20,697 nucleotides of DNA from a virus. A model generated the notes under the pieces. That model was not told where the DNA came from and ran no database searches. It saw nothing but the letters and a program-made list of their open reading frames with translations. The DNA is taken from positions 1-20,697 of IMG/VR virus record IMGVR_UViG_3300025128_000437; one strand, written 5' to 3'. Within the stretch, counting starts at the first letter, position 1. Each line of letters starts with the position of its first letter. Shown one piece after another: positions 784 through 18,383 of the stretch. Both the position numbers and the translations under genes were made by a program.

Positions 784-1036
784 CATCTTCCTCCTTTGGT
801 AAGTGTTCTTTAAGTTGATAGTCCCTATACCAACCACCTCTGCTAGGCTGTCCAAACTGTAGTAAGTCTGCTAGTTTGTACATAAGAGACTCTATCTCAC
901 AAACGTGTTCATAGTATATAGGCACTTTCTCTGCTGTATTACAGCTAAACTCCCTCAATATGTTAACGTACTTGAGTAGTTCTATTCTGTCTTTTGGACT
1001 CACTATAAAGTTTTTATTTCCTATGTCTATCTTCAT
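773..1036 (-). CDS. 87-aa hypothetical protein
   Basis: AAGGAG lies seven bases before the ATG, and the ATG overlaps the methyltransferase stop as ATGA, so it is probably translated from the same message. The product is mostly helical by composition, with two cysteines around residues 32 and 46 and an acidic tail (KEEDDDN). Its placement right after the methyltransferase could mean a functional link, but no motif shows it. I do not recognise the family. Confidence 0.7.
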   Translation of the reverse strand: MKIDIGNKNFIVSPKDRIELLKYVNILREFSCNTAEKVPIYYEHVCEIESLMYKLADLLQFGQPSRGGWYRDYQLKEHLPKEEDDDN

Positions 1037-2088
1037 GAATATACTCCTTCTAATATGTGCGAGATCACTGCACGAGTGAAGCCATTGCCGATCATCTTGT
1101 AGCGTTGGCTGTTTGATATGGGTCTTACCTCTCCAAGGTAGCCATGCTTGTGGTCAAACTCACCATACTGTGTCCACAGATCTGGTAGTGTCTGTAAGCG
1201 TTCACACTCTAAAGGTGTTAATGCTCTCCAATGTAGCTCGTCTGTCTCTACCTTGGGCATTCGCCATCCACCTTGCATAGTAGTCAGGGTAGGACTCTTG
1301 CCTTGCCTAGAGTACACACGCTTGATGATGTCGTAGCCTTTGAGGTCAGCTTCACCAACTTGCTTGCATCTATCCCAATGAGGATGACCTTTGTCATTGA
1401 AGACCACTTGCCTACGTGACTTCTCAAAGTACATCTTCATGCTACCACCTTTGAAGTAGTTGGCATCTACACAATAAGACTTATCCCTGTCGGTCATGCT
1501 GTCATCTTCTAGTATATCCTGTAGTACGATGCCCTGATCAGCCAACTCGTTGTGTGGTATGTTGGTTATGTAGACACGCTTCCTAGACTGAGCAGACACC
1601 TTGGCACTGTCATGTGTATACATCTCTGCCTGACGAATCTTGCTGACATTCTTGAGCCATTCGTGTTTGGCTTTGGACTCCACGTTCTCAAGCAAAAAGT
1701 AGTCAGGGTTCAAGCCGTGCAATGCGTCATACATAACCTGAGATAGATCACGACTGTCTGATGTGCCTTGCATCTTACCTGCCACGCTGTAGGGCTGACA
1801 AGGGAAACCTGCGATCAGAAGAAAGACATCTCTGCCCTTCAATGTATCCCAACCATTGGCATCGCCATGATGTATGGCATGAGGTATCTGGTATCTGGAC
1901 ACAGCACTAGCATACTTGTCTGTCTCAAATGTGTGGTACTCGTAGTCACCAGTCGGGGACACGTCAATCCCTGCGTCTAGGCATGAGAGGTAGGCACTAT
2001 CTGTGCCACCACACAGGCTGACTACAATCTTTTTCCCCGATGTCGGGATAATTGAAGTGTCGTTCCAATCGTGATCAAATGTCATCAT
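1033..2088 (-). CDS. C5-cytosine-specific DNA methyltransferase
   Basis: This 351-aa enzyme should transfer a methyl group from S-adenosylmethionine to carbon 5 of cytosine in DNA. In phages such enzymes usually protect against host restriction. Visible motifs in order are a divergent cofactor motif I (VVSLCGGTDSAYL, residues 22-34), the catalytic PCQ loop (GFPCQPYSVAGK, Cys97), ENV at 134-136 and QSRKR at 167-171. PTLTT follows at 266-270, inside the target-recognition side, then the C-terminal LTPLECERLQTLP and GNG (334-336). The layout resembles the short phage DNMT3-like class. Two ATGs are adjacent; AGGAG is four bases before the first and seven before the second, so the protein may start at the second. 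No endonuclease partner is seen next to it, so an orphan enzyme is likely. Target sequence is unknown. Confidence 0.93.
   Translation of the reverse strand: MMTFDHDWNDTSIIPTSGKKIVVSLCGGTDSAYLSCLDAGIDVSPTGDYEYHTFETDKYASAVSRYQIPHAIHHGDANGWDTLKGRDVFLLIAGFPCQPYSVAGKMQGTSDSRDLSQVMYDALHGLNPDYFLLENVESKAKHEWLKNVSKIRQAEMYTHDSAKVSAQSRKRVYITNIPHNELADQGIVLQDILEDDSMTDRDKSYCVDANYFKGGSMKMYFEKSRRQVVFNDKGHPHWDRCKQVGEADLKGYDIIKRVYSRQGKSPTLTTMQGGWRMPKVETDELHWRALTPLECERLQTLPDLWTQYGEFDHKHGYLGEVRPISNSQRYKMIGNGFTRAVISHILEGVYS
2036..2047 (-). repeat. Dispersed 12-bp element, inverted copy inside methyltransferase
   Basis: The only perfect copy in the opposite orientation (CCCGATGTCGGG on the plus strand). It lies within the first 20 codons of the methyltransferase gene and is read there as PTSG (residues 15-18). 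Its position near the start could allow autoregulation, which is inference. Confidence 0.8.
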
Positions 2089-2266
2089 AGTTCTCCTTAT
2101 TTATTTGTTTAAATGCTATCGCCCTTTTCTTGGCTCTGTTCTCTAGAACCTTAGATCTCTTGTCACCTATAACCTTAGGCTTCAAGACCCCCTGTGCCAC
2201 AGCTTCTGCGTGTAGCATATTACGTGGTCTTTTTCGCATTACCTTTTTGTAGATTATCTTTGCCAT
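2075..2266 (-). CDS. 63-aa basic hypothetical protein
   Basis: A short Lys/Arg-rich protein (MAKIIYKKVMRKRPRN at the start) with no cysteines and no hydrophobic span. Its net positive charge suggests contact with nucleic acid, which is inference only. AAGGA lies about nine bases before the ATG. Its end overlaps the methyltransferase start by 14 bases, and its own start overlaps the preceding gene by 47 bases, so all three are probably coupled. No family recognised. Confidence 0.6.
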   Translation of the reverse strand: MAKIIYKKVMRKRPRNMLHAEAVAQGVLKPKVIGDKRSKVLENRAKKRAIAFKQINKENYDDI

Positions 2267-2402
2267 GTTTTAAGTTCCTTTCGTAATAGTCATCAGTTAA
2301 TGCTTGTAAGCTCTTATCTTTCTCTGCCTTGAGCTTCGGGTCTGTTGTGTTCAACAGGATAGCCGTCAGCAATAGGTGTACGTTCTTGTCATGTATGTCC
2401 AT
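2220..2402 (-). CDS. 60-aa hypothetical protein
   Basis: I start at the ATG giving MDIHDKNVHL, with GAGGAG seven bases upstream. An upstream TTG in frame at 2417 would place the start inside the ribosome site and is unlikely. The product is helical and charged, with a short hydrophobic run (LLLTAILLN) that is too short for a sure membrane span, and a Lys/Asn-rich tail. It overlaps the next gene by 47 bases. Function unknown. Confidence 0.6.
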   Translation of the reverse strand: MDIHDKNVHLLLTAILLNTTDPKLKAEKDKSLQALTDDYYERNLKHGKDNLQKGNAKKTT

Positions 2403-2413
2403 ATATAATCTCC

Positions 2414-2656
2414 TCAATGGTAGGTCTGTACCATACCCTCTGGTTCGTAGACATAGCCTACGTCTGGTTCATCTTCAAGCTCGTACTCCTTGATAAAGTC
2501 AAACTCAACTATAGCTTCGGGGTAACACATCTTAGTCACACCTAGTGCATATTCAATCGCAGATGCTGTGCCATTAGCCACAAGTGGGTGAGAGCCACCG
2601 ACCCTCACCACACCTTGCTGACCATCTACGGATACAAAGATCTCGTAGTGCATCAT
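2414..2656 (-). CDS. 80-aa hypothetical protein
   Basis: The product begins MMHYEIFVSVDGQQG and has alternating beta-like and Gly-rich stretches, then an acidic C-terminal part (EYELEDEPDVGYVYEPEG). There is no membrane span. The start lies two bases after the stop of the upstream gene and the ribosome site (AGAAGG) lies inside that gene's end; either of two consecutive ATGs may be used. Family not recognised. Confidence 0.6.
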   Translation of the reverse strand: MMHYEIFVSVDGQQGVVRVGGSHPLVANGTASAIEYALGVTKMCYPEAIVEFDFIKEYELEDEPDVGYVYEPEGMVQTYH

Positions 2657-2658
2657 GG

Positions 2659-2973
2659 TTAGGCTACCTTCTTCTGGATGAGGAAGGACTTGATAGGCAC
2701 ATAGCTTGCCACTCTTCGCTTGCCCTTCCTATCATAGGCATGGAAGGAAGAGTAGGACTTGCCAAAGTTCAAGCGAACCAAAGGCTCACCTGACTTGCCA
2801 CCCTTACCCTTACGGATGAACCACCCAGTTTCTTGGATGTTGTCATCCCTGTAGATCACAGGCTTGTGACCCTGTAGCTTCAGCTTGATAGCCGTAGCGA
2901 TTATTTTTAAGAAGGTGAAACCACCTGATATTTTTGTGCCTTTTGGCAAGTTGTCAAAGTTAAATGTAAGCAT
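2659..2973 (-). CDS. 104-aa basic hypothetical protein
   Basis: AAGGAG lies eight bases before the ATG. The product is basic (many Lys, Gly and Arg), with GWFIRKGKGGKSGEP in the middle and a hydrophobic, beta-like end (VASYVPIKSFLIQ). It is the first gene after an untranslated gap of about 100 bases holding one 12-bp element and an AT-rich hairpin, so it may begin a transcription unit. The positive charge and Gly-rich middle suggest nucleic-acid contact, but no known fold is visible. Function unknown. Confidence 0.65.
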   Translation of the reverse strand: MLTFNFDNLPKGTKISGGFTFLKIIATAIKLKLQGHKPVIYRDDNIQETGWFIRKGKGGKSGEPLVRLNFGKSYSSFHAYDRKGKRRVASYVPIKSFLIQKKVA

Positions 2974-3002
2974 GGTAATGCTCCTTTCTGTGTTGTAGAA
3001 CT

Positions 3003-3014
3003 CCCGACATCGGG
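3003..3014 (+). repeat. Dispersed 12-bp element, copy 1 of the direct set
   Basis: Perfect CCCGACATCGGG (arms CCCGA and TCGGG around CA). It sits in the gap between the genes ending at 3076 and starting at 2973, 22 bases from an AT-rich hairpin. Probable protein-binding site. Confidence 0.85.
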
Positions 3015-3035
3015 AACTCTGTTGGTTTATGTAGT

Positions 3036-3083
3036 ACAGTTATATTATACTTTCATAAGTATTTCAAGTATAATATTAACTGT
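3036..3083. repeat. AT-rich hairpin A
   Basis: Left arm 3036-3052 (ACAGTTATATTATACTT) pairs with 3066-3083 (AAGTATAATATTAACTGT), with one unpaired base. The 13-base loop is TCATAAGTATTTC. It overlaps the stop codon of the gene to its right. No run of U follows the stem on either strand, so it is not a classic intrinsic terminator. On the minus strand TTGAAA and TATAAC are spaced by 17 bases within it, a possible promoter. Confidence 0.75.
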
Positions 3084-3495
3084 ATACTTTAACTGAAGGC
3101 TTTCCTTCAGCCGTAGTAGTCAGCCAGATCTGTCCGACCTGTCCGACAGGTTCACCTGTATCCTTGTAGACAAAGGTGTCGTTCTTGTAAGGGTTGTAAG
3201 TCACCTCACGTCCCTCGTCATGGTAGTGCTTGGGACTGATCCATGTAGACGGATACCACCCCTCTGCAAAGGCATGGACGTTCTTCTTGCCCTCTTCGAT
3301 GACACGCTTACGTCCCCCCTGTCTCACGTTGAACTTGGGTTCGATCATCACACTACCCTTATCATAAGTAGGCTCTATGTATACACCCTCTAGGAATACT
3401 TCAGGCTGTCGAGCTACGACCAAGCCTGTCTTCTTGTCTTGTATAGACCATTGCCCCTTATGTAAGTTCCAATATATTCTGACGTTCTTATCCAT
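3076..3495 (-). CDS. 139-aa conserved hypothetical phage protein
   Basis: I choose the ATG giving MDKNVRIYWNLHKGQW. It overlaps the previous stop as TAATG and has GAAAGG about eight bases upstream; the longer frame to 3579 lies inside the upstream gene. The pattern RIYWNLHKGQWSIQDK followed by GRKRVIEEGKKNVHAFAEG resembles a family I recall from phages and proteobacteria, without a known function. The second half, rich in Tyr, Gly and Thr, looks beta-stranded. It is coupled to the Cys-rich 247-aa gene. An AT-rich hairpin overlaps its stop codon. Confidence 0.75.
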   Translation of the reverse strand: MDKNVRIYWNLHKGQWSIQDKKTGLVVARQPEVFLEGVYIEPTYDKGSVMIEPKFNVRQGGRKRVIEEGKKNVHAFAEGWYPSTWISPKHYHDEGREVTYNPYKNDTFVYKDTGEPVGQVGQIWLTTTAEGKPSVKVYS

Positions 3496-4238
3496 TACGC
3501 TACCTTTCTGTAGTTGTTTTTGCCATTGCCATGAACAGGAATGAAGACAGACTTCGCCTGTATCTGATTGCCTGAACACAGCTTACACTTGTCACAGGTT
3601 GTACGCTTACCTGCTTCGTCTGATGCAGGACAGAGTATCTCCTTGCCTTGCACCATGTCATCGACAGAGTTGCCCACTCTGAAAGTCCTGTTGCCTAGCG
3701 ACCATTGATGCTTGGCTTGAGCCACGTTGTCCACAGAGATCATACACAGGTCAGGTCTAACGTCTGCACCTTTGACACCGAACTGATGTCCGTAGCCAGT
3801 ATGACCCTTTGCTTTGGACAGCACGTCATCCCATAGCCAAGACGGAACAGCCATCGGGTCACCATAAGAGCCAAGTCTGACAAGCTCATCTTCGAACCAG
3901 TCTGGTATCTGGTCAGCTTGTAGCTTGACATAAGCTCCTCTGTTGTATGCCTTGTATATGGACAGAAGCATCAGCAACATGACGTAGCACGTCCTGTCAT
4001 CTGCACCACCCGACTTCTTGTCAGGGTTAGCCTTACCTCTGTGGATACAGTCACCACAGACCGAATAGTCCTCACCAGTACGACTTGCTGTGATCGGGTC
4101 TATGTCCGATCTCATGATAAACGTCTGTACCATGCCACCAGTCTTGCGATTGCTTGTGTCCTTGATAGCGATCACAACTGTAGGTTTGCCATCAAGTCCA
4201 CTTGCACCTTCGAATAATATCACACCTTGTTTAGCCAT
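3495..4238 (-). CDS. Cys-rich conserved phage protein of unknown function
   Basis: This 247-aa protein has a conserved layout: KTGGMVQTFIMRSDIDP (about 32-48), then EDYSVCGDCIHRG with CxxC (about residues 61-64) and a further Cys near 84. GSYGDPMAVPSWLWDD, TGYGHQF and DLCMISVDN follow, and the C-terminal part has CPASDEAGKRTTCDKCKLC. The cysteines are paired in a way typical of zinc or iron-sulfur binding. I recall a similar phage family under the label DUF7227, but I could not check this. It overlaps both neighbours as TAATG, so it is in a coupled set with the 57-aa and 139-aa proteins. The family has no established reaction that I know of. Confidence 0.8.
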   Translation of the reverse strand: MAKQGVILFEGASGLDGKPTVVIAIKDTSNRKTGGMVQTFIMRSDIDPITASRTGEDYSVCGDCIHRGKANPDKKSGGADDRTCYVMLLMLLSIYKAYNRGAYVKLQADQIPDWFEDELVRLGSYGDPMAVPSWLWDDVLSKAKGHTGYGHQFGVKGADVRPDLCMISVDNVAQAKHQWSLGNRTFRVGNSVDDMVQGKEILCPASDEAGKRTTCDKCKLCSGNQIQAKSVFIPVHGNGKNNYRKVA

Positions 4239-4411
4239 TATATTCTCTCTACTTCTGTTAGTTTAAAGCACAGTCTGTTGTCCCATACACCTGCGACTTC
4301 GTCCCATGTCTGTGCATCTTCGTCAGCTATGACAACCTCTGTTGGATGCAACTCTACTATCTTGCCATAGATCTCCTGATCAATAACTTTTATTCTGTCC
4401 CCTACTTGCAT
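4238..4411 (-). CDS. 57-aa hypothetical protein, possible small beta-barrel
   Basis: Reading the minus strand from the ATG at 4411 gives an open frame of 57 codons beginning MQVGDRIKVIDQEIYGKIVE and ending with TAA overlapping the next ATG. AAGGAG lies seven bases upstream, and the stop of the preceding gene overlaps the ATG as TAATG. The VGDRIKV...YGKIVEL pattern recalls a small SH3-like barrel, but this is a guess from alternating residues. Its perfect fit between two genes, with the ribosome site, is the strongest evidence that it is real. Function unknown. Confidence 0.75.
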   Translation of the reverse strand: MQVGDRIKVIDQEIYGKIVELHPTEVVIADEDAQTWDEVAGVWDNRLCFKLTEVERI

Positions 4412-4548
4412 TATGCTACTCCTTTCTGCTTGAGCTTTTGCTTACGTGTTACCCTACGTTCCATGAGAACTAGGTTGTTTCTGCGTCTATCTTTTTTCCC
4501 GACATCGGGACTTTTTCTAAACTTCTCAAAGTTTCTATTGCTTTGCAT
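4411..4548 (-). CDS. 45-aa very basic small protein carrying the 12-bp element in frame
   Basis: The ATG at 4548 opens a 45-codon frame (MQSNRNFEKFRKSPDVGKKD at the start) rich in Arg and Lys. AGGAG lies eight bases upstream, within the end of the preceding gene, and the stop overlaps the next start as TAATG. Residues 14-17 (PDVG) are encoded by a perfect copy of the 12-bp element, as in the 206-aa gene further right. The charge suggests nucleic-acid or ribosome contact, but no family is recognised. Confidence 0.7.
   Translation of the reverse strand: MQSNRNFEKFRKSPDVGKKDRRRNNLVLMERRVTRKQKLKQKGVA
4498..4509 (+). repeat. Dispersed 12-bp element inside the 45-aa gene
   Basis: Perfect CCCGACATCGGG, read on the minus strand as Pro-Asp-Val-Gly in the 45-aa basic protein. 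T-rich on its left, followed by ACTTTTT on its right. Confidence 0.85.
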
Positions 4549-4553
4549 TTTCT

Positions 4554-4769
4554 TTACTCCTCTTCACCAAAGGCTTGTCCCCACTCTTCAGGCATATAGC
4601 CTGTCTTGAGGAACTCACGTTCATCTTCTGAAAGATAAGGCAAGCAGTCTTGGATAAGACCACGTCCTTCTTTCCACTTGATAAAATCAACCCAGTCAAA
4701 CAGCATGAACATACTGTTCACGTTACCTGTAAGTGGTGATTCCATTTCAATACAATGCATAGTTTTCAT
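4554..4769 (-). CDS. 71-aa conserved small phage protein
   Basis: The central and C-terminal part (GLIQDCLPYLSEDEREFLKTG, then MPEEWGQAF) matches a short acidic pattern I recall from many phage proteins of unknown function that end near a Pro-Glu-Glu-Trp motif. AGGAG lies seven bases before the ATG. The gene's end supplies the ribosome site of the next gene. It has no membrane span and one cysteine in the core. I know of no proven role for the family. Confidence 0.75.
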   Translation of the reverse strand: MKTMHCIEMESPLTGNVNSMFMLFDWVDFIKWKEGRGLIQDCLPYLSEDEREFLKTGYMPEEWGQAFGEEE

Positions 4770-4793
4770 AATTATTCTCCTAAGTTAGTTTCC

Positions 4794-4805
4794 CCCGACA
4801 TCGGG
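4794..4805 (+). repeat. Dispersed 12-bp element, first of a tandem pair
   Basis: Perfect CCCGACATCGGG in the 66-base gap between the genes at 4836-5216 and 4554-4769. A second, degenerate copy follows 16 bases on. Confidence 0.85.
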
Positions 4806-4809
4806 ACTT

Positions 4810-4821
4810 TCCGACATCGGG
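4810..4821 (+). repeat. Dispersed 12-bp element, degenerate tandem copy
   Basis: TCCGACATCGGG matches 11 of 12 bases and is followed by another G. It lies on the same face of the helix to within about half a turn of the copy at 4794 (16-base spacing). Confidence 0.7.
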
Positions 4822-4835
4822 GTGGTTGTGTTGTG

Positions 4836-5216
4836 TTAGCCTTCGTAAGATGTAGCTAGACCTCTAGCAACTTTCAAGGCTTTGCTCATGTAGTCTGCAC
4901 TTATGTCACAGACAAACAAGTCTTCAATTTTGAAACCTTCTTTCACACCATGCAGATGACCTGCATTTTTAGTCACAGCCATCGGGTAAACGTCAGCTAC
5001 CCCGACAACTTTTTCTGATGGTATCAAAAGGACATCGCCAGTTTTCAGATCGTCATCACATTGGGTCATGTCATAAGCATCAGATGTGCTTGAGAAAGTC
5101 CACACTCGGACATCATCCACAATGGACATTCCGTATTCTTGAAGTTCATTTTCAAAGCCACCACCGATTTCATCCCATGTGGTATTGACAAAGTTTTTTG
5201 TTACAGAGTTTTCCAA
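4836..5216 (-). CDS. 126-aa hypothetical protein with TTG start
   Basis: The start is TTG, with AAAGGA about seven bases upstream. It is supported by comparison with the 206-aa gene to the right: both have the leader AACTGAAAGGAAA and then a protein beginning MENS. The product has acidic and beta-like segments (KTGDVLLIPSEKVVGVADVY) and two cysteines, with no membrane span. It lies downstream, in transcription order, of an AT-rich hairpin and one 12-bp element. No family recognised. A TTG start with a strong ribosome site suggests moderate, controlled translation (inference). Confidence 0.7.
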   Translation of the reverse strand: MENSVTKNFVNTTWDEIGGGFENELQEYGMSIVDDVRVWTFSSTSDAYDMTQCDDDLKTGDVLLIPSEKVVGVADVYPMAVTKNAGHLHGVKEGFKIEDLFVCDISADYMSKALKVARGLATSYEG

Positions 5217-5237
5217 TTTATTTTCCTTTCAGTTTTC

Positions 5238-5249
5238 CCCGACATCGGG
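5238..5249 (+). repeat. Dispersed 12-bp element near hairpin B
   Basis: Perfect CCCGACATCGGG, flanked by TTTTC and AGTTT, placed between AT-rich hairpin B and the ribosome site of the 126-aa gene. Confidence 0.85.
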
Positions 5250-5260
5250 AGTTTCAGTTA

Positions 5261-5318
5261 ATCTATATATTATTTTAATACCCTTTCATAAGTATTCAAG
5301 GGTTTAAAATATATAGAT
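5261..5318. repeat. AT-rich hairpin B
   Basis: Outer stem 5261-5271 (ATCTATATATT) pairs perfectly with 5308-5318. The inner stem ACCCTT (5280-5285) pairs with AAGGGT (5298-5303). The loop is TCATAAGTATTC, almost the same as in hairpin A although the stem sequence is different. It sits just after the stop of the small membrane-protein gene. No U-tract follows the stem. Confidence 0.75.
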
Positions 5319-5321
5319 AGC

Positions 5322-5531
5322 TTAGTCTCTGGCATTGTAAGACACAAATGCAAAGTTGAAGCACCCTGCCAGTCCAAAGATACTGGCTATCACAAGACAA
5401 GCTATGTCAAGATTGTTGTAGCCAAGGTCAGCTATCTTGGTGCTTTCCATCATGCTGATGAATGTGTGGGCTATTCCAAAGTACGCTACACCTAGAAGTA
5501 GCATTGATAAGTTTGCGATAAATTTTAACAT
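5322..5531 (-). CDS. 69-aa two-span membrane protein, hypothetical
   Basis: Two hydrophobic stretches, about residues 5-27 (ANLSMLLLGVAYFGIAHTFI) and 42-63 (DIACLVIASIFGLAGCFNFA), are joined by a short polar loop, the pattern of a small two-helix inner-membrane protein. AAAGGA is eight bases before the ATG. It lies in the left arm with likely early genes, away from the lysis region, so a role in host takeover or exclusion is more likely than lysis, but nothing in the sequence proves it. No family recognised. Confidence 0.7.
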   Translation of the reverse strand: MLKFIANLSMLLLGVAYFGIAHTFISMMESTKIADLGYNNLDIACLVIASIFGLAGCFNFAFVSYNARD

Positions 5532-5570
5532 TGTGTAAATCCTTTCTAGAGTTGACCGATGCCAAGTTTC

Positions 5571-5582
5571 CCCGACATCGGG
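5571..5582 (+). repeat. Dispersed 12-bp element, intergenic
   Basis: Perfect CCCGACATCGGG with flanks AGTTTC and AGTTTT, in the 66-base gap between the 206-aa gene and the two-span membrane-protein gene. Confidence 0.85.
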
Positions 5583-5597
5583 AGTTTTGAGGTAGTG

Positions 5598-6218
5598 TTA
5601 AACTGCCTTTGATTGCTTGTCAAGATCAAAGATGATCTCAACTACTTTGTTCAGATCAAGACCTCTTTCGATCATAAGAGCTACAAAGTCCTCTTCAGTA
5701 TTGAGAGGGATCTTTACAGTCTCTTGCTGTGGTTCAGCTTGGCTTTCAGCATTTTCCCCGACATCGGGAGTTTCTGCTTCAGCAGTTTCATCAACAGAAG
5801 GTTGAAGAGATTTCTTGTACATCTTCAAAAGATAGCTGATTGAAGTGATAGGCTTTCTATCTCTCTTCTTGGGAAGATTGTCGATGAAAGTTTGCATTGA
5901 ACCATCTTCAACAGCTTGGAAGTAAGCTTTAGCTTCTGACAATCTTTGTGAAGAGAAGTTCTTTCGAAGAAGCTCAAGATCAGACTTGCTATCTGTTGAC
6001 TTGGCTTCATCGAAGTCTCTACCAAGCTTGAAGCCTTGACTAAGATCTTTTTCAATCTGCATTTTCTTGGCTTCTTTGCTGTAATTGATACCAGTATCAA
6101 GTTTGTAAGCTCTGTTGATGGCTGACTTGATAGCCTTCTCTTCTTTGATCCTTTCTTCAATTCTGGAAGTTAAAGTGTTGTTGTAGTTTTCGAAAGCTTT
6201 TTGAGTTGAATTTTCCAT
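5598..6218 (-). CDS. 206-aa charged hypothetical protein
   Basis: The product is soluble and strongly charged. The N-terminal two thirds (about residues 10-135) look helical, with repeated Lys/Glu/Ala runs typical of coiled coils. A flexible acidic linker (about 140-170, rich in Glu, Ala and Gln) follows, then a compact end (EEDFVALMIERGLDLNKVVE). The linker contains PDVG (151-154), encoded by a perfect 12-bp element. AAAGGA lies about six bases before the ATG, and its leader and MENS start match those of the 126-aa gene. No family recognised. It is one of the first and longest genes of the leftward transcript. Confidence 0.75.
   Translation of the reverse strand: MENSTQKAFENYNNTLTSRIEERIKEEKAIKSAINRAYKLDTGINYSKEAKKMQIEKDLSQGFKLGRDFDEAKSTDSKSDLELLRKNFSSQRLSEAKAYFQAVEDGSMQTFIDNLPKKRDRKPITSISYLLKMYKKSLQPSVDETAEAETPDVGENAESQAEPQQETVKIPLNTEEDFVALMIERGLDLNKVVEIIFDLDKQSKAV
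5757..5768 (+). repeat. Dispersed 12-bp element inside the 206-aa gene
   Basis: Perfect CCCGACATCGGG read on the minus strand as Pro-Asp-Val-Gly in the flexible linker of the 206-aa protein, the same frame as in the 45-aa gene. Confidence 0.85.
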
Positions 6219-6244
6219 GTTATTTCCTTTCAGTTGGGTTTTGA

Positions 6245-6427
6245 TTAATCTTTTAATTTTACTCTTTCAGAGCATTCGGCATTCACTTTCTTGAAGACAT
6301 CTTTCAAAGCAGAGTAGACCAAGTTAACTTGAGGATCAGTACCATCGGCATTCTGAACCATGAAATCCATCTTATCTGCTAAAGCATTTGATATGATTAC
6401 CAGTTCTGCAAATCCAAATTTTTCCAT
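6245..6427 (-). CDS. 60-aa hypothetical protein, first clear gene of the left arm
   Basis: The product (MEKFGFAELVIISNALADKM at the start) is a small, mostly helical acidic protein with one cysteine. AAAGG lies about eight bases before the ATG. It is the first confidently coding gene reached by the leftward promoter and would be made earliest, but the sequence shows no motif. A run of hairpins separates it from the promoter. No family recognised. Confidence 0.65.
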   Translation of the reverse strand: MEKFGFAELVIISNALADKMDFMVQNADGTDPQVNLVYSALKDVFKKVNAECSERVKLKD

Positions 6428-6441
6428 TTTACTTAACCTTT

Positions 6442-6488
6442 CTTTTTTTTTAAGAGTTTCACTAAACGTTCAACTCTTAAAAAAAAAG
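6442..6488. repeat. AT-rich hairpin C, perfect 17-bp inverted repeat
   Basis: Arm 6442-6458 is a C, nine T and AAGAGTT, and 6472-6488 is its exact reverse complement. The 13-base loop is TCACTAAACGTTC, related to the loops of hairpins A and B. The T-tract comes before the stem and the A-tract after it on both strands, the opposite of an intrinsic terminator. Confidence 0.8.
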
Positions 6489-6514
6489 TAAGGGTAAGTA
6501 GTACTCTGTAGTGC

Positions 6515-6533
6515 TTCTCTCTCTAGGAGAGAA
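6515..6533. repeat. Short hairpin in left leader
   Basis: TTCTCTC (6515-6521) and GAGAGAA (6527-6533) pair around a five-base loop TCTAG. Confidence 0.6.
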
Positions 6534-6540
6534 AGATTTT

Positions 6541-6570
6541 CACCTCTTTGAAGACTATTCTTTAGAGGTG
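6541..6570. repeat. Short hairpin in left leader
   Basis: CACCTCT (6541-6547) and AGAGGTG (6564-6570) are exact complements around a 16-base loop. It overlaps the end of the doubtful 68-aa frame. Confidence 0.6.
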
Positions 6571-6768
6571 GATTTCTCCCGACATCGGGAAGTTTTGAGG
6601 GGTATGGTTTGGTAGCTGAAAGGATAAGCATAGGCTCTTCATTTTGCTACCACTTTTCAAAAACCAAACCCCTTTCCCACCTTTTGAAGTGGCAACTGAT
6701 TGCATAACAGTTTCCAAGATCTGCTGAAACCCCTTATCTGATGGGGTCATAGCACTCACATAGTTCAT
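6562..6768 (-). CDS. Doubtful 68-aa open frame in the left leader
   Basis: An ATG-started frame (MNYVSAMTPSDKGF at the start; SVATSKGGKGVWFL in the middle) could encode a small basic protein and lies in the right orientation. Against it, no ribosome site stands before the ATG, unlike almost every neighbour, and its second half lies in strong inverted repeats and one 12-bp element. The inverted repeats may instead be a structured untranslated leader. An alternative start is the Met at residue 7. I list it so that it is not lost. Confidence 0.3.
   Translation of the reverse strand: MNYVSAMTPSDKGFQQILETVMQSVATSKGGKGVWFLKSGSKMKSLCLSFQLPNHTPQNFPMSGEIHL
6578..6589 (+). repeat. Dispersed 12-bp element, rightmost copy
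   Basis: Perfect CCCGACATCGGG with flanks TTTCT and AAGTTTT. It is the copy closest to the divergent promoters. If the 68-aa frame is real it is read there as Pro-Met-Ser-Gly. Confidence 0.85.
6598..6692. other. Nested and competing inverted repeats in left leader
   Basis: AGGGGTATGGTTT (6598-6610) pairs with 6661-6673 with one mismatch, and TGGTAGC (6610-6616) pairs exactly with GCTACCA (6646-6652). The segment 6650-6662 can instead pair with TTTTGAAGTGG (6682-6692) with a two-base bulge. The two folds exclude each other, because they share 6650-6652 and 6661-6662. This is what an RNA switch or attenuator would look like, but no known class is recognised. Confidence 0.5.
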
Positions 6769-6907
6769 CAGAATGGACAGATCTATCCCACCATGTTACT
6801 ACCTGCATCATCTCTACTAGAAGATGACGTGGGCGTGGGACACCTAGGGGGTATGCGTATATATGCTTGTACAAATACACAGATCAGGAAAATTAAGTGT
6901 TAACCAC

Positions 6908-6936
6908 AATAGAATATCATGTACAGAGAGTGTCAA
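6908..6936 (-). promoter_or_regulatory. Leftward sigma70-like promoter
   Basis: On the minus strand TTGACA (6936-6931) is followed after 17 bases by TCTATT (6913-6908), a consensus -35 and a fair -10 (four of six). Transcription would start near 6901 and read the whole left arm. The first confident gene starts at 6427, giving a leader of about 470 nt. Confidence 0.6.
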
Positions 6937-6946
6937 ATAATGTGTA

Positions 6947-6975
6947 TTGACCTACGCAGCGAGACATGATATAAT
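6947..6975 (+). promoter_or_regulatory. Rightward sigma70-like promoter
   Basis: TTGACC (6947-6952), a 17-base spacer and a perfect TATAAT (6970-6975). The start would be near 6982, giving a leader of about 140 nt before the first right-arm gene. It is back to back with the leftward promoter; the -35 boxes are ten bases apart and form a GTCAA/TTGAC inverted repeat. Confidence 0.8.
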
Positions 6976-16169: not shown

Positions 16170-18383
16170 ATGAAAGAACAAATGGAACTCTTCAATGAAG
16201 GTGGATTACGTGATGAGGGTGGTACAGTAGAGCCTGAGTCAGGTAATGAAGTACCATCAGGATCTTTGCAAAAAGAAGTAGCTGATGATATACCTATTAT
16301 GATTAGTGAGGGTGAGTTTGTTTTTCCTGCTGACGTTGTACGATATATCGGACTAAACACATTGATGAAGATGCGTCAAGATGCCAAGCAGGGCTTGAAG
16401 ATGATGGAAAAGATGGGACAGATGGGTAATCCTGAAGAAGCAGAGATACCTGATGATATGCCTTTTGGTATGGCTGATCTTATAGTTATAGGATCTGACG
16501 ATGATGAAGAAAAAGATGAAGAAAAAGATAGTGATGTAAAAGAAATGCAGACAGGTGGACTATTAGATGATCCACGCTTTCAAAGACCAACAGGTGGTGA
16601 AACACCTACTATAGGAGATGAAGATAAAAAAGAAATAGAAGATGCGCTGTTAGGTACTGTATACGGAACTATAACAATGCGTAGATATGTTAATGCTGAT
16701 GGTATAGTGAAGTATATTCCGTTTATAGGGGATGAACCACAAATGGCTATACCTGAAGGATTTGAGTTAGATGAGTCTGCTCCTAAACCAACAAACACTA
16801 CAGTATCAAGTATTTCAACAGGTAGTGATGATGATAGTTCTAGTGCTACACCCTATAGCCAGTTAAATCCTAACCTAAACCCATTTAAAGATCAAGGAAC
16901 TGCAAACTTTAATATTGACAACTTAGATGCAAATCAATTAGTGGATTACTACGGTTCGTTTTCAAGTCCTATGAATAGATTTTTAAGTGTGGGTGTAGGT
17001 ATGCTATTTGGGGGCGCACCTGCTTTGGGAATAGCTACAATGCAACAGTTTGCTCAGACTAGAGGACCAAATAGTTTACAAGCTACGGAAGCCAAGATAG
17101 CTCAGATGGTAAAAAATGGTGAAATATCAGGAGATCTTTTAGATAAGTTGAAAGCTTTTCAAAAGAGAGCTATAGAAAAAGGCACAGGTCCTAAGAGCTT
17201 TTTGAGCAGACTAATAGGTGGAGTAGCAGGAGGAGATAAGAAAAAAGCTGATACTCTCACTAATGCTTTAAAGAAAGGTAATGCCAATGCTGTTAGTAAA
17301 GAATTAGAGGGAGTTATAGAACAATCGGCTCAACAGGCTCTAAACTCAGCACTATTTACTGTAGGTAATGACATTGATATTAATGAGCCTGAAGCTCAAA
17401 ATAATTCTACTTTAATTAAAACAGTAGGTGGATTAGTAGATACTGCAAGAACATCTACATTTGATAGTATGGTTGATAAAGCACCTACGACAGAACTAGA
17501 AGGAGAGTTTGTTCCTGCTCCAATAGAAGACTATAAAACATATACATCTAGAGAAAAATATCCAGAGACTCGACCACAAACACTTGGTCTTACGGCAAGA
17601 GATGCTTTTAAGACAGAACGCTTTAAACCTGCTACTGTAGATTTTGGTACAACAGATGCTGCGTTAAAAAGAGCAACAGAAACTGATGTATATAAAACAG
17701 CTTTTGGTTTAGAAAACTTTGGCAGAACACCTGTAAAAGGAACAGGGTTTGAAGTAGGACGTTCTCCTTATGAAGCAGAAGGTAGATCTCAGCTAGGTTC
17801 AGGGTTTGATCGTACTAGACCAGAATTATATGGTAGAGGATTTACACCTGAAGATATAGGAGTTGATCCTGCTTTAGAACAAAAATTTAAAGATAGAGTA
17901 GGAGGTAAGACTAAAAAGAGAACGAAAAAAGCTGATCAACCTAGTCGTATACTGCCTAGACGAGGAGAAAAATTTACTGATATAGGCACAGACATGCCAT
18001 CTAGAATTGGACAAACTAGAGTTGATGATTTTTTAATGGGTGTTAAAAGAGATGACAAAGGTAATATTTCAAATCTTACAGAGCAACAACAGAAAAATAT
18101 ACGACAAAATGTACAAGATGTAAGAGATGCTGATAAAGCAAGACAAGAAACATTCATGCAAACAGGAGATGCATTTGCTGCAGATAGAGCTTTTCATCAA
18201 GAGTTTACAGGTTTTGATAGTCAAGGTAACTTTTTAGGTGGTGCTAAAGGTGGCTCATTCTACGTAGGTGGTGTACCCACTAAACCTATGAAACCACAAA
18301 GACTAAAGAAAGGTGGTTTAGCTAAACCCAAAGTTAAACCAAAACGAATGAAGAAGGGTGGACTAGCTTCAAAGAAAAAATAA
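16170..18383 (+). CDS. 737-aa virion-associated protein with KKGG tail
   Basis: AAAGGG lies six bases before the ATG. The N-terminus has a conserved-looking block (DIPIMISEGEFVFPADVVRY, then GLNTLMKMRQDAKQGLKMME) I recall from marine phage proteins. An acidic low-complexity part follows, then a compact segment (TMRRYVNADGIVKYIPFIGD), a Gly-rich hydrophobic stretch near residues 270-295 and a long charged region. The end has RLKKGGLAKP and RMKKGGLASKKK, close to the tail repeats of the 292-aa protein. Its place between portal and scaffold suggests an internal or ejected virion protein, though that is inference; a tail component is the main alternative. Confidence 0.7.
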   Translation: MKEQMELFNEGGLRDEGGTVEPESGNEVPSGSLQKEVADDIPIMISEGEFVFPADVVRYIGLNTLMKMRQDAKQGLKMMEKMGQMGNPEEAEIPDDMPFGMADLIVIGSDDDEEKDEEKDSDVKEMQTGGLLDDPRFQRPTGGETPTIGDEDKKEIEDALLGTVYGTITMRRYVNADGIVKYIPFIGDEPQMAIPEGFELDESAPKPTNTTVSSISTGSDDDSSSATPYSQLNPNLNPFKDQGTANFNIDNLDANQLVDYYGSFSSPMNRFLSVGVGMLFGGAPALGIATMQQFAQTRGPNSLQATEAKIAQMVKNGEISGDLLDKLKAFQKRAIEKGTGPKSFLSRLIGGVAGGDKKKADTLTNALKKGNANAVSKELEGVIEQSAQQALNSALFTVGNDIDINEPEAQNNSTLIKTVGGLVDTARTSTFDSMVDKAPTTELEGEFVPAPIEDYKTYTSREKYPETRPQTLGLTARDAFKTERFKPATVDFGTTDAALKRATETDVYKTAFGLENFGRTPVKGTGFEVGRSPYEAEGRSQLGSGFDRTRPELYGRGFTPEDIGVDPALEQKFKDRVGGKTKKRTKKADQPSRILPRRGEKFTDIGTDMPSRIGQTRVDDFLMGVKRDDKGNISNLTEQQQKNIRQNVQDVRDADKARQETFMQTGDAFAADRAFHQEFTGFDSQGNFLGGAKGGSFYVGGVPTKPMKPQRLKKGGLAKPKVKPKRMKKGGLASKKK

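Follow-up and report, generated by a model that had tools for sequence, protein, structure and literature searches.

A dyad site kept through coding and intergenic sequence in the early module of HMO-2011-type phages, and gp01 as its candidate reader

Why would a 12-bp element be read as the same tetrapeptide, Pro-Asp-Val-Gly (PDVG), in two unrelated proteins of one phage module? The window analyzed here, i.e., the whole 20,697-nucleotide (20.7 kb) stretch of the IMG/VR virus record IMGVR_UViG_3300025128_000437, represents part of the genome of a marine podophage of the HMO-2011 type; its capsid protein shares 73-74% identity with the capsid proteins of Roseobacter phage CRP-345 and Puniceispirillum phage HMO-2011. 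Phages of this type have been described as dominant in the ocean and as widespread there; integrases are encoded by some of them, and one integrates (PMC9038755, PMC6918029). A repressor is not mentioned in the paper describing the group (PMC9038755, PMC6918029).

The dyad in the early module of the window

Counting both strands, the element CCCGACATCGGG was found in eight exact copies and one copy with a single mismatch, all within positions 2036-6589 and none elsewhere in the 20.7-kb window. At up to two mismatches, there were 17 strand-wise matches compared to 0.27 expected (100 shuffles, maximum 2). All copies belong to the leftward early module, the relevant features of which are as follows (dyads are exact unless noted; the promoter in the last line is outside the dyad system).

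1033..2088, minus strand: C5 DNA methyltransferase (PF00145, 3e-24) with an in-gene dyad
2036..2047, minus strand: in-gene dyad, methyltransferase residues 14-17 (PTSG), in a short N-terminal extension; kept in G005-G008
3003..3014, minus strand: intergenic dyad, 29 nt upstream of the start of a 104-aa gene
4411..4548, minus strand: 45-aa basic protein with an in-gene dyad
4498..4509, minus strand: in-gene dyad, residues 14-17 (PDVG) of the 45-aa protein
4794..4805, minus strand: intergenic dyad, 24 nt upstream of the start of a 71-aa gene; one of a tandem pair
4810..4821, minus strand: partner dyad of the tandem pair with one mismatch (sense CCCGATGTCGGA), a variant also conserved in L010, L013, and L090
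5238..5249, minus strand: intergenic dyad, 21 nt upstream of the start of a 126-aa gene
5571..5582, minus strand: intergenic dyad directly past the gp01 stop codon
5598..6218, minus strand: gp01, 206 aa, orphan family, candidate dyad-binding early regulator
5757..5768, minus strand: in-gene dyad, gp01 residues 151-154 (PDVG), in a predicted disordered stretch
6578..6589, minus strand: leader dyad upstream of the first early genes
6947..6975, plus strand: strong rightward sigma-70-like promoter, TTGACC-17-TATAAT, between the divergent gene blocks

Six of the nine copies are wholly intergenic, compared with 9.8% of the module (binomial P = 5.7e-5), a test that, like the in-gene calls, rests on our own gene models. 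None of the sites overlaps an identified early promoter, and all of them may be transcribed. The preliminary description, made from the window alone, had read PDVG in frame in the 45-aa and 206-aa proteins and PTSG from the inverted copy in the methyltransferase; all three readings were borne out at the residues listed above. The methyltransferase copy has CA, not TG, at its center on the sense strand. The type A methyltransferase (types are listed below) carries the dyad in its short N-terminal extension (window 2030-2088); in G008/L090, this region differs ahead of the dyad and is almost unchanged behind it.

Other elements were observed around the early leader. In the dyad types that were compared, the divergent region at approximately 6680-6960 and its equivalents contain a conserved block, TGTGGTTAACAC..TTCCTGATCTGTGTATTT, and an inverted repeat, CAACTGTTATGGNATCAGTTGCC; these are possibly an early promoter or an attachment/origin region. 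An exact chromosomal-type parS, TGTTTCACGTGAAACA, is present at 17090-17105 of G013 (L241), in the early leader of this type E phage. Further palindrome clusters near the early leader are TTGTGATCACAA-like (CRP-603, CRP-13, and CRP-345) or of the form GTTTA-N4-TAAAC (CRP-9 and CRP-13) and may be operators of a different regulator.

Constraint on the in-gene copies

By the codon usage of the window, the probability that PDVG is spelled CCC GAT GTC GGG is 0.0006, and both PDVG copies are so spelled. The same 12-mer recurs 3-9 times in L090, which was found by the DNA pattern, and in seven IMG/VR loci, each found through its relative of the 206-aa protein; where contigs were covered in full (up to 42.8 kb), it is restricted to the early module. 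In every type A gp01 relative, CCC GAT GTC GGG is exact while the flanking codons diverge; downstream of the site, 22 codons are identical between the window and L090, 11 differ synonymously, and 15 non-synonymously. The N-terminal domain of type A gp01 diverges strongly, but the site does not. On a separate note, gp01 is mosaic (window 5598-6218; L011-L015 and L090), with at most about a quarter of the codons identical in the N-terminal domain and a C-terminal part that is nearly identical between some phages.

In homologs from phages with other dyads, the peptide changes and the dyad proper to each phage stays. The gp01 linker reads SNVG in GTCCAA phages, at the matching place and in the matching register; the homolog of the 45-aa protein in these phages also has SNVG in place of PDVG; and the in-gene tetrapeptide of type E gp01 is SQVG. 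Among the gp01 loci, 88 contain the in-gene site; the peptide encoded there is SNVG, SDVG, PDVG, SADG, SDSG, or SDNG, with a dyad retained at the DNA level. In types B and C, a site 22-26 nt past the gp01 stop codon, equivalent to that at 5571-5582, takes the place of the in-gene site, and in L324-L326, the in-gene site of gp01 is lost by a point change (GTCCAACGTTGGTC). Two look-alike copies in GTCCAA phages served as controls: LSKVG in the integrase and RMSNIGRP in gp30 are kept as protein and spelled with other codons in homologs, and both are protein-level coincidences.

The codon and homolog comparisons strongly support a constraint that acts on the DNA rather than on the peptide, in line with the original suggestion that the site is kept for its own sake. 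Homologs with other residues and a retained site had been named as the check on that suggestion and were found, whereas the opposite pattern, PDVG conserved through different codons, was found neither for gp01 nor for the 45-aa protein. We also agree that the two PDVG proteins are unrelated, and one of them, gp01, probably reads the site. The idea that the element is able to enter coding sequence as a 12-base unit received no support: no relative lacking exactly four residues was found.

Two alternatives can be weighed on this evidence. PDVG/SNVG could be a conserved linker motif, with the DNA repeat incidental to it; the register is indeed constant (SNVG/SDVG/PDVG), and flexible residues are tolerated or preferred there. 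The same DNA, however, recurs at non-coding positions with exact codons in the genes, the peptides follow the dyad type, and true protein-level cases (the integrase and gp30) differ from the dyads in the codons used by their homologs; already contradicted by the codon data, this explanation can practically be dismissed. Alternatively, the dyad could be a mobile or selfish palindrome resembling the Rickettsia palindromic elements, or a recombination-boundary sequence, that spreads between genes, and the mosaic N-terminal parts of gp01, next to near-identity around and after the site between some phages, would fit such spreading. We nevertheless consider it highly unlikely because the positions are conserved over deep divergence, the copies stay within a single module, no empty site shorter by four residues was found, the clear losses are point changes, and the early copies of each genome are all of one type.

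Dyad types and co-variation with gp01

Each genome with a dyad array carries one dyad type and none of the others; the layout is the same and the arms differ. Six types were distinguished.

Type A (window type): CCCGA-YR-TCGGG
Type B: GTCCGA-YR-TCGGAC, AGTCCGATGTCGGACT; G015
Type C: AGTCCG-N4-CGGACT (core GTCCG-N4-CGGAC); HMO-2011 and G011
Type D: GTCCAA-NN-TTGGAC, center mostly YR; CRP-345, CRP-1, G009, and G010
Type E: GTCCCAA-S-TTGGGAC, TGTCCCAASTTGGGACA; G013, 11 copies
Type F: TACCTA-N-TAGGTA; G012

In addition, a hybrid dyad, GTCCGACGTTGGAC, occurs in some phages. The arrays of HMO-2011-type phages comprise about 5-11 copies dispersed through the early operon. This survey covers about 110 gp01-bearing loci from three scans, partly redundant and many of them fragments, and several isolate genomes read without their middle parts; nearly all gp01 loci with enough flanking sequence carry a dyad array. 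Dyad arrays are absent from 13 other HMO-2011-type phages, and gp01 was found in none of these 13. CRP-1, CRP-2, CRP-9, and CRP-13 infect the same host, FZCC0023, and only CRP-1 has dyads; because phages of the same host differ in this way, the dyad trait is phage-borne.

In one lineage of gp01, every early copy of the dyad exchanged its GTCCAA arms for GTCCGA arms in concert. In-gene sites, in gp01 as in the 45-aa protein, change type along with the intergenic copies and keep their codon register. In the GTCCGA phages G016-G018, all early copies have switched and a single copy of GTCCAA form is left outside the early cluster, which, if it lies in that gene, is consistent with the integrase coincidence described above.

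gp01 is present in types A-D by sequence and in types E and F by position. Comparison of 56 GTCCAA with 6 non-redundant GTCCGA gp01 sequences revealed one position outside the in-gene site that separates 62 of 62, with T in the former and S in the latter; a helix begins there (T113 in L311), the counterpart of which in the window protein is the helix at approximately residues 127-138. Further along the same helix, by 4 and 7 residues, two more positions distinguish the groups, though less cleanly. At the T/S position, S is found in the phages with the hybrid dyad. A gp01 tree built without the T/S and associated columns shows five changes of the residue and five of the dyad arms; the independent pairs with support number four, and each of them agrees (sign test p = 0.125, a value constrained by the small number of pairs). 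No such separating column was found outside the in-gene site in 12 other early proteins of the same loci, some of them represented by few sequences. Because of the T/S co-variation and of a column unmatched in the other early proteins, gp01 is the likely reader of the dyad; the co-variation is correlative.

Two AlphaFold models of gp01 show helices and a disordered linker, in which the in-gene site lies. Pfam, PHROGs, and PDB searches gave no recognizable DNA-binding domain or known fold; Foldseek (PDB and viral structures) and VIA-align gave nothing above background; and tblastn of the 206-aa protein against public phages gave no match. In eight proteins, including seven gp01 homologs, there was no Pfam match to a ParB/Srx or KorB domain at E<=1, with only unrelated families at chance level. 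No prophage with gp01 was confirmed in 84,980 bacterial and archaeal genomes.

Several other candidates for the dyad factor were considered and set aside. A DUF932-like protein is present in some dyad-free phages and has no HTH; the gp01 segment IDRRRRSEALWF, considered as the specificity determinant, is identical in GTCCAA and GTCCGA phages; and no convincing gene exclusive to GTCCGA phages was found. The dyad as the target site of the methyltransferase was rejected as well: the dyad-free phage G014 also has a methyltransferase-like ORF, and the annotated early genes of CRP-345, a dyad-bearing phage, include none.

Orientation, alternative readings, and known systems

Relative to transcription, the orientation of the dyads is strongly biased (type E, 11 of 11; hybrid, all; ACAG 31 versus CTGT 3; TG 157 versus CA 44). 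Binding of a near-palindrome by a symmetric dimer would not call for such a bias, which is compatible with either an RNA hairpin or polar, stoperator-like action. Among distinct sites, 237 are exact and 4 have one mismatch (3 of these 4 break the pair), with almost no wobble; the search for compensatory or wobble stem changes among the copies yielded only a wobble-compatible orientation in the hybrid type. The center is a pyrimidine-purine step in about 95% of the sites, a rule that is not absolute, as about 10 non-integrase sites have GG, and it flips to its reverse complement at homologous places.

Stem-loops of another kind were observed in the window at 3046-3079, 5279-5312, and 6430-6500 (minus strand) and in 28 distinct cases in L290-L398. 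Their loop, TTGAA-N-(G)TGAAA, hardly varies, whereas the stems covary (ACAC/GTGT, CCCC/GGGG, or AGAG/CTCT), and they are found on the sense strand only, upstream of gp01 and other early genes. By these features, this looks like an undescribed RNA element; an Rfam search of the window gave no match.

Could the dyad itself be a hairpin of the early transcript, bound as RNA by gp01 or a host factor and involved in boxB/nut-like antitermination, attenuation, or mRNA processing? All sites lie in possibly transcribed regions and mostly in one orientation, every copy of the hybrid type is oriented so as to be compatible with G-U pairing, and stems of 4-6 bp are possible for most types. Against this stand the near-invariance of the arms within a type, without wobble drift, the flipping center that obeys the YR rule, the weak stem of type F, and the opposite behavior of the RNA-like stem-loop in the same operons, where the loop is kept and the stems covary, so that we regard a hairpin as unlikely. 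Still less probable are borrowed sites of a host transcription factor or another host DNA-binding protein: the types might follow host clades, with AGTCCG-N4-CGGACT in HMO-2011 on SAR116 and GTCCAA in CRP-1 and CRP-345 on Roseobacter, but dyads are not shared by all phages of one host, a gp01 residue changes along with the GTCCAA/GTCCGA switch, and dyads are missing from phages that lack gp01. A similarly small chance attaches to a gp01-read site for partition, iteron-like replication, or protection, KorB/ParB-like, in place of transcription control; dispersed palindromes of 12-17 bp do resemble KorB or parS sites, and an exact parS of 16 bp is present in the same leader of G013, a type E phage, whereas Pfam detected no ParB-like domain in gp01 and the sites are concentrated in intergenic gaps.

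With moderate confidence, we favor the reading of the dyad as a double-stranded DNA site for gp01 that serves stoperator-like damping or shut-off of the early operon. The gp01 protein (~200 aa, encoded by the first large gene of the operon) would bind the two-fold symmetric dyads, and binding would dampen or shut off transcription of the early operon, its own gene included, through intergenic, leader, and in-gene sites, as with cluster A stoperators. PDVG, SNVG, and the other tetrapeptides would be by-products of a site kept in a flexible protein stretch. We infer binding of the dyad by gp01 and a role of gp01 as a repressor or roadblock, and the system may also provide superinfection immunity. 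Several observations count against this reading: gp01 gave no match to a DNA-binding domain or known fold, its N-terminal domain diverges strongly within type A beside an unchanged site, the independent pairs are few, the orientation bias is more than a symmetric dimer would need, and the sites do not coincide with any identified early promoter. More tentatively, and with a somewhat less than even chance in our estimate, gp01 could found a new family of dyad-binding regulators that changes specificity by a T to S replacement in one helix together with coordinated replacement of the operators, in-gene ones included, and could be the missing early regulator or immunity system of HMO-2011-type phages.

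The dyads and gp01 point to a previously undescribed system of early gene control. A candidate regulator, operators of at least six types, and residues of interest can now be named, and immunity groups could therefore become predictable from sequence. The phages further offer a natural set of recurrent protein-DNA specificity changes in which operators also had to fit within genes, and a clean system to study how one regulator and its many sites change together.

Dispersed palindromes of 13-16 bp, some far from promoters and bound by one regulator, are known from KorB-OB of plasmid RK2 and from ParB-parS. The dyads are similarly dispersed and palindromic, but the KorB and parS sequences differ, and no ParB or KorB domain was found in gp01. 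The boxB (nut) sites of lambda N are phage-specific inverted repeats matched to an early protein encoded first in the early operon; they act as RNA, and their stems are free to covary. The dyads share the short phage-specific repeats and the early protein, whereas their arms are fixed and their center flips, as expected for DNA. Cyanobacterial HIP1 and the Rickettsia palindromic elements are short palindromes in coding sequence, genome-wide or mobile; the dyads resemble them in lying within genes but are few, positionally conserved, and limited to one operon.

The closest comparison is with cluster A mycobacteriophages (L5, Bxb1, and TipsytheTRex), in which stoperators are dispersed in the early region, in short intergenic gaps and mostly in one orientation, with a consensus that tracks the phage repressor (PMC6550527, PMC9283540). 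Reversal of a stoperator abolishes its function (PMC9283540). The dyads are alike in their multiple sites dispersed in an early transcribed region, many in short intergenic gaps, in an orientation correlated with transcription (a bias that is strong and not absolute), and in a consensus that varies with the repressor, if gp01 is taken as the candidate repressor. They differ in being near-palindromes of 12-17 bp, whereas L5-type stoperators are 13-mers without symmetry to which a monomer binds that has its HTH at the N-terminus, and in lying also inside genes, including that of the presumed regulator. The cluster A repressor combines the N-terminal HTH with a stoperator domain; gp01 is helical in its models, and searches of Pfam, PHROGs, and PDB gave no match. 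With its unmatched gp01 and palindromic sites, the dyad system is not a member of the cluster A stoperator class, but by analogy it appears to work in the same way.
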